Shown here: positions 7,342-10,075 of the stretch, one piece after another
Numbering within the stretch: position 1 is the stretch's first letter
Layout: each line of letters starts with the position of its first letter
DNA from: Flagellimonas taeanensis
GTDB lineage: Bacteria; Bacteroidota; Bacteroidia; Flavobacteriales; Flavobacteriaceae
Assembly: GCF_003584105.1 (NCBI RefSeq)
Contig: NZ_QXFO01000011.1
Span: 186,001 to 250,000 of the forward strand
Reading direction: 5' to 3'
DNA length: 64,000 nucleotides
Made by a program: the position numbers and the translations under genes
Notes under the pieces: generated by a model
What the model saw: the letters and a program-made list of their open reading frames with translations, nothing else
Told to the model about the DNA's origin: nothing
Database searches by the model: none

Positions 7342-7360
7342 ATTTAAATTAAGTCTAAAT
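7342..7360. promoter_or_regulatory. Shared 19-bp operator-like dyad, copy 1
   Basis: The sequence atttaaattaagtctaaat is an imperfect dyad (ATTTA....GTCTAAAT) ending 3 bp before the -33 element of the porin promoter. It differs by one base from the site at 10057-10075 upstream of the convergent small gene. A regulator binding here would control both units. The shape recalls operators of metal-dependent repressors, which is inference only. Confidence 0.6.
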
Positions 7361-7363
7361 AAA

Positions 7364-7395
7364 TTTGGTTAATCATGAAAGTAAAAATAAATTTG
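7364..7395 (+). promoter_or_regulatory. Promoter of the porin-flavoprotein operon
   Basis: TTTG at 7364-7367 and TAAATTTG at 7388-7395 are separated by 20 bp, a full match to the Bacteroidota -33/-7 promoter (TTTG and TAnnTTTG). Transcription would begin near 7400, just before the porin ATG at 7418. Confidence 0.7.
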
Positions 7396-7417
7396 CCGCG
7401 CTATTATCTAAAATCTC

Positions 7418-8596
7418 ATGAAACGATCAATCTTATTGTTCAGTTTACTTTTTACAGGTTTACTTTTTGGTCAAACTATAACCGATTCAATACAATTGGA
7501 TCCACAAAAGCAAATTAATGCAGCTCAGCGTTTGTTATCAGGTAATTATGCTTCTGCGGTAACAGTAGGGGCCTACGGCGAGATGCTCTATAATCAACCC
7601 GAAGCCCAGAATGGTGAACTTGATGTTCAACGTTTGGTGGTATTGTTTGGGTACCGATTTGATGATAGAACCCAGTTTGTAACCGAAATCGAATTTGAGC
7701 ATGTCGAAGAAGTTTATATAGAACAGGCGTTTGTCAATTATAACGCGGCACCAAATTTTAACATAAGGGGTGGCCTTATGTTGGTGCCTATGGGCATCAT
7801 TAACGAGTTCCATGAACCCACCACATTTAATGGAACTGAGCGCCCTGAATTGGATAATGTAATTGTACCGACAACATGGCGCGAGTTGGGGGTTGGAGTT
7901 ACGGGTAGATTTAATTCTTTGTCCCTTGGCTATCAGGCATATCTTTTTAATGGGTTCAAATCTTCCCAATCAGATGGTGATGGTGGTGTTCAGGGATTGT
8001 TGGGAGGGTCCAGTGGTCTTCGTGGTGGTAGACAAAAAGGTATTCAATCCACTATTGATAGTCCAAACCTATCCACTAAATTGGATTATTACGGTATACC
8101 GGGACTACGCCTTGGATTTTCAACCTATTTTGGTAGAACCCAAGCGGCGGATAATGTTGAGGAGTTTGATGGTTCAGACATTGGAATGGCCATGTATGGC
8201 CTGGACGCTCGATTTGCACACCAAAATTTTACGGCAAGGGGACAATTTATCCATGCGTCTTTATCTGATACTGATTTGTATAATAATTTGACTGGTAGTA
8301 ATTTAGGCAGTGCTTTGCAGGGCTGGTATTTGGAAAGTGCCTATAATGTGCTTCCAATGGGCAAAAGACAAAAGCTTTATGCCTTTGCACGGTATGAAAC
8401 TTACAACTCGCACTTTAAAGTTGATGGATCTTTACAAGCCAATGATGCATATGATCGTTCCGATATTACAACAGGATTGACCTATCACATTGCTCCAGGG
8501 GTTGTTGTAAAGGGAGATTACCAATTCAGAAGCAATGCAGCTGATGATAGTGATGTTCCTGATCGTTTGAACTTTGGTATAGGAGTGTGGTTCTGA
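7418..8596 (+). CDS. Outer-membrane porin, OprO/OprP-like
   Basis: A 392-residue protein with a signal peptide (residues 1-19, ending LLFGQ) and a body rich in alternating strands: TVGAYGEMLYN, DVQRLVVLFGYRF, TQFVTEIEFEHVEEVYIEQAFVNY, FNIRGGLMLVPMGIINEFHEP, and a last strand ending in phenylalanine (GIGVWF), as needed for barrel insertion. The early strands with the RGGLMLVPMG turn fit phosphate-selective porin relatives. The substrate is not evident. It is first in an operon with a flavin-binding protein and a membrane protein, behind a full promoter and an operator-like dyad. Base composition is somewhat more AT-rich than its neighbours. Confidence 0.85.
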   Translation: MKRSILLFSLLFTGLLFGQTITDSIQLDPQKQINAAQRLLSGNYASAVTVGAYGEMLYNQPEAQNGELDVQRLVVLFGYRFDDRTQFVTEIEFEHVEEVYIEQAFVNYNAAPNFNIRGGLMLVPMGIINEFHEPTTFNGTERPELDNVIVPTTWRELGVGVTGRFNSLSLGYQAYLFNGFKSSQSDGDGGVQGLLGGSSGLRGGRQKGIQSTIDSPNLSTKLDYYGIPGLRLGFSTYFGRTQAADNVEEFDGSDIGMAMYGLDARFAHQNFTARGQFIHASLSDTDLYNNLTGSNLGSALQGWYLESAYNVLPMGKRQKLYAFARYETYNSHFKVDGSLQANDAYDRSDITTGLTYHIAPGVVVKGDYQFRSNAADDSDVPDRLNFGIGVWF

Positions 8597-8643
8597 TAGA
8601 TGCCAATCCAAAAGAAAGGATTAGTAAAACATTACATTTAGTC

Positions 8644-9171
8644 ATGACAAAAGCGGGGTTTTTAGGTTTTATTTTTCTATTATTTTCTTTTGGGTCTGCT
8701 ATTTTTCCAGGTTTGGACAAGAAATCCATAAAGGAAATTGAAAAGACTTTTGGAACTGCGGATTTTAAGTTGGAACCCATATCTATCCAAGAGGAAATCA
8801 ATTCAATTTTGCCGATGAAAATTGCTTCGGAAAATCTTTATAAGGTAAATACTTCGGATGCTCTGTTGGGTTATGCATTTTGGAATCAGGCGCCAAGTAA
8901 AACAGCTATGTTCGACTACCTGGTAATATTTGATGACAGTTTGAAAATTATCAATGTAAAAGTGCTTGTTTACAGAGAGGACTATGGAGGTGAAATTGGA
9001 AGCAACCGTTGGCTAAAACAATTTATTGGAAAATCAAGAGCAGATCGCATAAAAGCTGGCGAAAATATAGATGTAATTTCAGGGGCCACCATTTCAGTGA
9101 ATTCCATGGCCAAGGAAATGGACAATCTTTTGCAAAGTATTGATATTCTACAAACAAAAGACCAAATTTGA
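8644..9171 (+). CDS. Periplasmic FMN-binding domain protein, predicted flavinylated
   Basis: A 175-residue protein with an N-terminal membrane or signal segment (GFLGFIFLLFSFGSAIF) and an FMN_bind domain like that of RnfG/NqrC. The C-terminal DVISGATIS at residues 143-151 matches the Dxx(S/T)GAT motif to which ApbE attaches FMN, with Thr149 as the predicted site; YREDYGGEIGSNRW precedes it as in the family. ATG at 8644 is chosen because it directly precedes the hydrophobic segment, although the frame is open from 8587. It lies 47 bp after the porin and its stop overlaps the next start. It should carry single electrons outside the inner membrane. Confidence 0.88.
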   Translation: MTKAGFLGFIFLLFSFGSAIFPGLDKKSIKEIEKTFGTADFKLEPISIQEEINSILPMKIASENLYKVNTSDALLGYAFWNQAPSKTAMFDYLVIFDDSLKIINVKVLVYREDYGGEIGSNRWLKQFIGKSRADRIKAGENIDVISGATISVNSMAKEMDNLLQSIDILQTKDQI

Positions 9172-9668
9172 TGGAATACAATGGCTTGCTTTGCACCTTA
9201 TCCAAAGAGATCAGACTCTTTATTGCTACTTTTGTTATCATACTTTCCATAGGATATTTTACAGGGCTACTTTTTATAAAACATACTGAGGCTACATCTC
9301 CAAATGGAATTGAGGAGAATTATTTGGGCAACGAAGAGGATGAGGAGGCAACCGTAATGAAGTTCAAAAAGGGGGATAGGGAGATGCTCACCACGGTTCA
9401 CACCCATATTTTGTCCATGTCATTGATCTTTTTCTTGTTGGGCGGGTTGGTCTGGATTTCCAAGGCACCCAAAAAGTGGAAACTTTTTTTGACCATTGAG
9501 CCTTTTCTTTCGGTCATCTTGACCTTTGGGGGAATTTACCTGATGTGGATAGGAATCAGTTGGTTCAAGTATGTGGTGATATTTTCCGGGGCATTGATGA
9601 CCCTCAGCTTTACAGGAGCAGCCTGTTTGGTCCTTTGGCAATGCGTAAAACCACCAAAGGTGGAATAG
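9171..9668 (+). CDS. Four-helix inner-membrane protein, partner of the flavoprotein
   Basis: A 165-residue protein whose ATG overlaps the stop of the flavoprotein gene by one base, implying translational coupling. Four membrane helices are visible (about 13-36, 76-98, 104-125, 130-155). Between helices 1 and 2 is an acidic loop (YLGNEEDEEAT), followed at the start of helix 2 by histidines in the pattern TVHTHIL; another histidine (IKHTE) ends helix 1. Paired histidines could bind heme or quinone, which would suit an electron donor to the flavoprotein, but this is inference. I do not recognise a named family. Confidence 0.75.
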   Translation: MEYNGLLCTLSKEIRLFIATFVIILSIGYFTGLLFIKHTEATSPNGIEENYLGNEEDEEATVMKFKKGDREMLTTVHTHILSMSLIFFLLGGLVWISKAPKKWKLFLTIEPFLSVILTFGGIYLMWIGISWFKYVVIFSGALMTLSFTGAACLVLWQCVKPPKVE

Positions 9669-9672
9669 GGGA

Positions 9673-10023
9673 TCAGTTCTCTATAAATTGATAATCGATA
9701 TCCTGATAATCCAATAGTTCTATCTTGGTCTTTTCATAAGAAAGCAGGTTCATGATTTCATGGATTTCTTCCTTGTTCACCAAAATGATAAAATGTTTTT
9801 TTCCCACCGAAATGGGAATCTTGCGTTGATGTGCCCAATTTTTTAAATGGCTTTCCCAATAGGCAATGTCCAATTGTCCAATATATTCCTTCAAAGCTTC
9901 GAGTTCCCATTCATAAAGCTCAAAGCAAAGGTTGTTGAAAATCAATTGGAACAGTTTGCTCTGGTTGCAAAAGGTCAATATTCCATTTTTGGAACGGCTC
10001 AGTATATTCAAGGATTTGCACAT
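9673..10023 (-). CDS. Small cytosolic protein, Bacteroidota type, unknown function
   Basis: A 116-residue soluble protein without signal or membrane segment. It starts MCKSLNILSRSKNGILTFC, with cysteines at residues 2 and 19, and continues as a mixed alpha/beta domain (FQLIFNNLCFELYEWELEAL, KIPISVGKKHFIILVNKEEI). From memory it resembles a short uncharacterised flavobacterial family (possibly DUF6686), not verified. It converges on the flavoprotein operon, 4 bp from its end, and has its own promoter carrying the second copy of the shared dyad, so the two units are likely regulated together. Confidence 0.75.
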   Translation of the reverse strand: MCKSLNILSRSKNGILTFCNQSKLFQLIFNNLCFELYEWELEALKEYIGQLDIAYWESHLKNWAHQRKIPISVGKKHFIILVNKEEIHEIMNLLSYEKTKIELLDYQDIDYQFIEN

Positions 10024-10042
10024 AAGTTGTTCTATTGGATAG

Positions 10043-10074
10043 TAAAGATAATAATTATTTATATTAAGTCTAAA
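10043..10074 (-). promoter_or_regulatory. Promoter of the small gene at 9673-10023
   Basis: On the minus strand TTTA (complement of 10071-10074) and TATCTTTA (complement of 10043-10050) are 20 bp apart, a one-mismatch-per-box fit to the Bacteroidota promoter. The -33 box lies inside the dyad at 10057-10075, so a bound regulator would block RNA polymerase. Confidence 0.5.
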
Positions 10075-10075
10075 T
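10057..10075. promoter_or_regulatory. Shared 19-bp operator-like dyad, copy 2
   Basis: The sequence atttatattaagtctaaat matches the dyad at 7342-7360 in 18 of 19 positions. It sits 34-52 bp upstream of the start of the minus-strand gene and overlaps its -33 box. Confidence 0.6.

Follow-up and report, generated by a model that had tools for sequence, protein, structure and literature searches.

Meheust et al. (2021; PMC8238504) describe ten flavinylated systems together with P19 clusters and propose iron reduction for the PepSY-like ones; the same article reports redundancy between flavins and cytochromes. Here we compare with these systems an operon in the 4.09 Mb genome of Flagellimonas taeanensis (28 contigs), located in a stretch of 64,000 nucleotides (G000:C10:186001-250000) that we call the window. 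The operon encodes a porin, a periplasmic protein with an FMN_bind domain and an unnamed four-helix inner-membrane protein, here termed TM4. The interpretation towards which we lean, on the strength of sequence comparisons, is that these genes form an iron-repressed periplasmic module for Fe(III)-reducing uptake, wherein TM4 would pass electrons to the flavoprotein.

The PepSY-like clusters resemble this operon in having an extracytosolic flavinylated protein, ApbE, a link to iron and, in some cases, TonB receptors (PMC8238504). However, their membrane partner is PepSY (PF03929/PF16357), which TM4 does not match, and the porin belongs to the present set. The P19/FTR1 iron assimilation clusters with FMN_bind, covered in the same article, likewise place a flavoprotein next to an iron transport route, but no P19 or FTR1 is evident among the Pfam-scanned neighbors here, where no targeted search was made, and the present locus has a porin and TM4 instead. 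NqrC and RnfG share the FMN_bind domain and the SGAT motif, with a weak similarity to rnfG that lies far below the cut-off, whereas the present protein stands alone with no Nqr or Rnf membrane subunits adjoining. Stronger FMN_bind matches beside ApbE elsewhere in the genome are probably NqrC, judging from their neighborhood.

The initial annotation knew of no described system with exactly this set, and literature searches agree as far as the sources extend. Among open-licence titles and abstracts, none describes a set of FMN-binding protein, porin and TM4; the main text of PMC8238504 has no mention of a porin or of "Bacteroid-"; and term searches of PMC9478572, PMC5429918 and PMC10434189, which deal with iron in Bacteroidetes, returned no such FMN-binding protein. 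Periplasmic ferric iron reduction in Bacteroidota was not found described in the open-licence literature, and the module is a conserved, testable candidate. The operon probably represents a variation on iron reduction by flavinylated proteins in which the membrane partner is one not described before, possibly of a new class.

Conservation of the three genes and their operator

The operon of porin, FMN_bind and four-helix genes that the initial annotation had outlined, with its promoter, its dyad and an overlap between the last two genes, was confirmed by direct reading and by control searches, and its gene order proved to be conserved. Among 60 loci of Flavobacteriaceae besides the window (two further loci are also complete), the order porin, FMN_bind, TM4 was matched in 56 and is whole in 55, since the porin of L096 is only a fragment. 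The four family loci that lack the triad are two remnants (L104 and L105, in G099 and G075), one locus with a TonB receptor, DUF6607, FMN_bind and TM4 (L103), and one (L048) where the genes preceding TM4 encode PepSY_TM and a small Cys-rich protein instead of the porin and FMN_bind. Outside the family, the three genes are contiguous in 30 of 34 loci (L145-L174); the other four are L144, which has DUF6607-FMN_bind without a porin, L175 with another order, L176, which has all three genes but a gap after the porin, and L177, whose match (E 7.8e-4) is probably no homologue. In a set of 80 close relatives, mostly named genomes, the triad was found by tblastn in 62, all of them with a dyad that has no more than 3 mismatches and 57 with a -7 box 24-26 nt past it. 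TM4 itself was matched in 75 of 199 Flavobacteriaceae genomes (one per genus, our own genome included) and in 39 of 395 genomes of the phylum; its closest named relatives, in Allomuricauda/Flagellimonas, reach 91% identity, with the strain's own record possibly excluded from the comparison. Pairwise distances of the three genes are rank-correlated at 0.42-0.65, a figure not used as evidence.

Judged from sequence, the dyad before the porin is an iron-type operator, because elsewhere the same motif adjoins feoB, ferritin, suf and TonB-receptor genes. Both dyads of the window, including the near-identical one that the initial annotation had noticed before a convergent small gene, differ from the consensus TTATTTARATTNAATYTAAATAA by 2 mismatches. 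When the whole 23-mer was searched in the Flagellimonas genome with up to 3 mismatches, 8 places were found, compared with 1 for the pattern read backward. Two of the 8 are at this locus, and the remaining six adjoin feoB, a small gene followed by ferritin, sufA/sufB, TonB receptor/DUF6607-FMN_bind genes (twice), or no evident target (once), so that five of the six keep company with iron genes. Twelve other genomes, searched with up to 2 mismatches, yielded 34 places versus 1 in the control, with one genome lacking any. Eleven of these places are the operon itself, and 15 of the 23 elsewhere adjoin FeoAB (5), TonB receptors (8), ferritin (1) or DUF4856 (1); the neighbors were assigned by Pfam for six of the receptors, two FeoB genes, DUF4856 and a Fur gene beside one FeoB, and by eye for the rest. 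This company narrows to iron the substrate that had earlier been supposed to be perhaps a metal. More generally, the 23-bp operator gives the outline of an iron regulon, which lends itself to mapping across many genomes. A shorter half-dyad pattern gave 7 places in the same genome versus 6 for its control; as it does not exceed the control, it is not used as evidence.

The placement of the dyad is also constrained. Upstream regions of the porin in relatives contain a dyad with up to 4 mismatches in 56 of 56 cases, compared with 48 of 2800 dinucleotide shuffles, and the -7 box TANNTTTG begins 24-26 nt past the best dyad in 51 of the 56 (25 nt in the window). At least two separate dyads at this threshold occur in 45 of the 56, a count of pairs that carries no shuffle control. 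Such a fixed place beside a promoter is what a repressor would need. Among the 30 contiguous loci outside the family, a dyad scoring at least 12 precedes the operon in 25 (in L152 and L155 it precedes a solute-binding protein gene), and L147 has none there. Shuffle tests, which left out L152 and L155, rank the dyad of L174 as the weakest of these distant examples, with 1 in 17 shuffles scoring equally well. In L153, L154, L158 and L164, where ApbE is the first gene, a weaker copy of the dyad lies just before it. A candidate regulator is the product of the one DtxR-family gene of the genome, which has a FeoA domain and adjoins a ZIP transporter gene; a search of the open-licence literature turned up no DtxR paper on this operator for Flavobacterium or "Bacteroid-".

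Several other dyad sites merit mention in their own right. A second operon with an iron-type dyad (L003/L012, contig C25, about 250400-252000) has a TonB receptor divergent from a DUF6607-FMN_bind gene with an SGAT motif, and the single TM4 match of the genome may serve both FMN_bind proteins; DUF6607 is not mentioned in the open-licence literature, whereas DUF2871, discussed below, appears in four papers there. The dyad before sufA/sufB (C9:51363) has 3 mismatches, and its position there suggests that iron-sulphur assembly is part of the regulon. A dyad with 1 mismatch lies between PAP2-like and M28-peptidase-like genes, named by eye (C26:170226). In another genome (G131), a dyad lies near the start of nqrA, as identified by eye, which might put the Na+-pumping NADH dehydrogenase of that genome under iron control.

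The flavoprotein, ApbE and the porin

The FMN_bind protein of the window matches PF04205 with 32.8 bits (cut-off 22), and its sequence DVISGAT fits the flavinylation motif D-x-x-[ST]-G-A-[ST], as given in PMC12052999. Thr149, which the initial annotation had predicted to carry the flavin, is indeed the motif threonine when residues are counted from the ATG at 8644. An alternative GTG start at 8587 would make it residue 168, and residues 1-19 are gapped in 74 to 88 of 91 aligned rows. The acceptor threonine occurs without exception in the 89 rows that can be read; the other two of the 91, L062 and L097, are unreadable in the alignment, and L097 when read directly holds the SGAT motif. The motif aspartate is kept in 15 of 58 readable family rows, in 7 of 31 others, and in none of 13 rows from loci with ApbE in the operon.

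These observations point to attachment of FMN at Thr149 by ApbE. Three ApbE matches occur in the Flagellimonas genome, and ApbE was found in all 54 TM4-bearing genomes in a hand-picked set of 80 (54 with TM4 and 26 without). Thirteen of the 34 loci outside the family have ApbE inside the operon, where it is the sole ApbE match of the respective genome. It follows TM4 in L145, L146, L147, L148, L149, L151, L152, L155 and L163, and precedes the porin in the four loci with a dyad before ApbE; in L171 and L176 it is close to the triad. The motif in all 13 ApbE-in-operon loci reads [RQVK]-N-[IV]-[SA]-G-A-T, without the aspartate, and ApbE and its Asp-less substrate are perhaps a co-adapted pair there. 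Two of the three Flagellimonas ApbE matches, on contigs C4 and C23, have equal scores, and FMN_bind matches accompany them with equal scores and spacing; together with an estimated contamination of 5.83%, this suggests duplicated sequence in the assembly.

The description of the porin as OprP-like holds for its fold. Structural comparison places the model in the trimeric porin fold, and OprP (2o4v) is its second-best match. Of 26 aligned porins, 13 match Porin_O_P (PF07396) with E values of 0.1 or less, whereas the window porin itself has no Pfam match over the cut-off. In contrast to OprP and OprO, with which this fold is shared, the present porins have invariant Glu and His residues where OprP is noted for an arginine ladder (title of 2o4v), and identity to OprP is 13%.

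A porin and an FMN_bind protein would also suit respiratory export of electrons to minerals or other extracellular acceptors. FMN_bind proteins serve such systems elsewhere (PMC8238504), and the porin could pass an acceptor. However, the operator is one common to iron uptake, storage and iron-sulphur genes, and no multihaem cytochrome was recognized by eye beside the operon in the loci inspected, for which no targeted search was made. We regard electron export as very improbable.

TM4 and its varying partners

The iron-reduction interpretation can be put as a sequence of steps. When iron is plentiful, a metal-dependent repressor would occupy the dyad beside the -33 box; when iron becomes scarce, the porin, the FMN_bind protein and TM4 would be made. 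The porin may then admit ferric iron or small ferric chelates, while ApbE would attach FMN to Thr149 of the periplasmic protein. TM4 would most likely draw electrons from a donor in the inner membrane, either the quinol pool or some other, and pass them to the flavin, which would reduce Fe(III) to Fe(II). The product would be imported by FeoB in most genomes, and in two genomes without a FeoB match a solute-binding protein encoded in the operon may open an ABC route. The outer part is exchangeable, being either the porin or a TonB receptor with DUF6607.

The four helices earlier assigned to TM4 agree with the AlphaFold model, which has four long helices (pLDDT 86). Across 92 aligned members, G53, H77, H79, F87, P111 and F119 are invariant and E110 is present in 91. 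The positive-inside rule would place the N-terminus in the cytoplasm and loop 38-68, which is long, conserved and acidic, in the periplasm; H77 and H79 would then belong to the half of the second long helix that faces the periplasm. No known family was matched over the cut-off by Pfam and NCBIfam searches with the single sequence, by Pfam searches with 59 members and 10 distant ones, or by a profile search of the PDB, and none of the Pfam searches gave a match to PepSY. A Foldseek search of the PDB returned no match at E <= 0.001 (best 0.76). VIA-align gave Z scores up to 8.5 to unrelated helical bundles, with a haem-copper oxidase at 7.4 among the ties, values that are not meaningful for helical bundles.

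Kinship with the haem-copper oxidases was tried and could not be established. DUF2871 (PF11070) and small four-helix COX1-like proteins resemble TM4 in size and, in L328, in an H-T-H in the second helix, but no profile match between them and TM4 is significant. The best DUF2871 score (E 0.0052, in 13 of 59 TM4 members) is below the cut-off, and there is none in the window protein or in the 10 distant members. We take the H-T-H motif to be a feature of DUF2871 as well. An hhalign comparison with three small COX1-like proteins aligned the histidines with a probability of 0.7% and E 0.086, and although this was the best-scoring of the sets tried, it is not significant: CcoN-type proteins gave E 0.22, NnrS-like proteins 0.41, and the controls (reversed sets, LysE, ZIP) 0.13-0.51. 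Two small COX1-like proteins of about 154 aa with four helices and an S-A-H-T-H motif, L328 and L331, are encoded outside the operon; the former aligns its histidine to H77 in hhalign, again without significance.

TM4 is not confined to the triad. The proposition that the three genes always go together had to be dropped, as 18 of the 80 close relatives keep an intact TM4 without a neighboring porin or FMN_bind, so that TM4 must have a use without them there. All 19 residues that are invariant in the family alignment are retained in these copies, except that the first is missing from one truncated row, and a dyad with up to 4 mismatches lies 52-57 nt before TM4 in 11 of the 18, with a -7 box 28-33 nt before it in 14. 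In two of the loci, L211 and L238, a TonB receptor is encoded on the opposite strand (assigned by Pfam for L211). In L210, L213, L218 and L230, TM4 ends a row of imelysin, HTTM and TonB receptor genes with DUF4856 in front, assigned partly by Pfam and otherwise by tblastn or by eye. In L218 and L230, moreover, a Haem_bd cytochrome with CxxCH lies directly before TM4, and FMN_bind is missing. A Haem_bd relative was detected by tblastn also at 9 TM4 loci with FMN_bind, and directly follows TM4 in L237 and L242. The TM4-only loci, PepSY in L048 and DUF6607-FMN_bind in L103 and L144 speak against a three-gene machine of fixed composition. The periplasmic carrier is perhaps exchangeable between FMN_bind and a Haem_bd cytochrome, and the natural swaps among flavoprotein, cytochrome and PepSY can be used to ask what TM4 does.

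The strongest argument for TM4 as a redox partner is the cytochrome that adjoins it in the absence of FMN_bind, and it rests on two loci. Such a cytochrome is also compatible with an iron-sparing arrangement, in which the flavoprotein would replace a periplasmic cytochrome under iron shortage and feed an oxidoreductase that does not act on iron. The iron-type operator and the Haem_bd relatives, which occur at loci with FMN_bind and in its stead at L218 and L230, would be expected of such an arrangement. However, the porin, the solute-binding protein, the TonB receptor and the neighbors in the imelysin row point to uptake, and no conserved gene for a periplasmic acceptor adjoins the operon in the loci read. 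This explanation therefore seems improbable to us.

Alternatively, TM4 might be a small Fe(II) permease, such that porin, flavin reductase and permease would be in line from the outer to the inner membrane and the flavin would obtain its electrons from elsewhere. Metal could be bound inside the helices by the invariant H, H and P and by an E and an M that are nearly invariant, TM4 has its own dyad just upstream in 11 of the 18 relatives where porin and FMN_bind are missing, and it is retained beside PepSY in L048. Moreover, FeoB went unmatched in 3 of 54 genomes with TM4, compared with none of 26 genomes without it. The three, in which FeoB_C was not matched, are G354 and two of the three genomes with a solute-binding protein gene before the porin, G534 and G550. 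(The three loci with that gene are L149, L152 and L155, the second assigned by Pfam as SBP_bac_1/6/8/11; the protein may bind ferric iron.) On the other hand, FeoB is present in 51 of the 54 TM4 genomes, the cytochrome directly upstream of TM4 in two loci better suits a redox partner, and no transporter family was matched over the cut-off. We consider a permease unlikely, while giving it more weight than an iron-sparing role.

Several observations weigh against iron reduction with TM4 as the electron donor. TM4 alone or beside PepSY is the best counter-argument, since a Fe(II) permease would explain it equally well, and the pairing with PepSY would be odd if both were electron conduits. TM4 bears no cofactor signature beyond one H-x-H, and neither fold nor profile searches related it to an electron-transfer protein, so that the passing of electrons by TM4, as first proposed, has gained neither a cofactor nor a significant link to a haem protein. 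Among the 199 Flavobacteriaceae genomes 124 lack TM4, and FeoB is missing from 3 of 54 genomes with TM4. ApbE and FeoB are each found also in 26 of 26 genomes without TM4; being nearly universal in the 80 hand-picked genomes, their presence says little and does not discriminate. Eight of the 23 outside dyad places have no evident iron target, one of them adjoining nqrA. Finally, 43 of the 58 readable family rows lack the motif aspartate, as do 24 of the 31 others and all 13 rows with ApbE in the operon. The flavinylation prediction is kept despite this weakness because replacing Asp by Ala is reported to have had little effect in one fumarate reductase (PMC12052999). The initial interpretation is thus partly supported and is narrowed to iron.

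If TM4 does donate electrons, we tentatively suggest, with less confidence than we attach to iron-repressed reductive uptake as such, that it represents an undescribed class of transmembrane electron-transfer protein. It would be a four-helix donor on the quinol side that has an H-x-H site and feeds exchangeable periplasmic carriers (flavinylated FMN_bind or the Haem_bd cytochrome) for iron acquisition across Bacteroidota, and it may be a haem protein and a distant relative of the small COX1-like proteins.

Positions and neighboring features

Table 1. Coordinates of the operon and its adjoining features in the window.
Feature	Position	Strand	Description
Operator dyad TGATTTAAATTAAGTCTAAATAA	7340-7362	.	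23 bp, before porin
Promoter TTTG-N20-TAAATTTG	7364-7395	+	Bacteroidota-type; TTTG 7364-7367, TAAATTTG 7388-7395; -7 box begins 25 nt past dyad
Porin gene	7418-8596	+	392 aa; trimeric porin fold (OprP/OmpM1-like)
FMN_bind gene	8644-9171	+	ATG 8644, TGA 9169-9171; hydrophobic N-terminal signal-like segment (by eye)
Flavinylation motif DVISGAT	9070-9090	+	predicted FMN-Thr codon 9088-9090
TM4 gene	9171-9668	+	unnamed four-helix inner-membrane protein, 165 aa
TM4 H77-x-H79	9399-9407	+	codons; invariant, 92/92
DUF6686 gene	9673-10023	-	convergent; 116 aa; PF20391 E 3.3e-40
Second operator dyad TTATTTATATTAAGTCTAAATAA	10055-10077	.	upstream of DUF6686 gene

No RNA element reached the gathering score and no terminator was predicted in the window, where sigma-70-type promoters number 13 compared with 10.0 in shuffles. 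The convergent DUF6686 gene was considered as a further component of the module and rejected, as it accompanies none of the 60 family loci, although it does so in 34 of the 80 close relatives; it is probably a member of the same regulon that is not part of the module. Small proteins beside dyads in other places are not demonstrably DUF6686 homologues. The porin, FMN_bind and TM4 genes are codirectional, with the TM4 ATG and the FMN_bind TGA overlapping by one A, and are flanked by a gene of the HMGL-like family and by what is presumably guaB.

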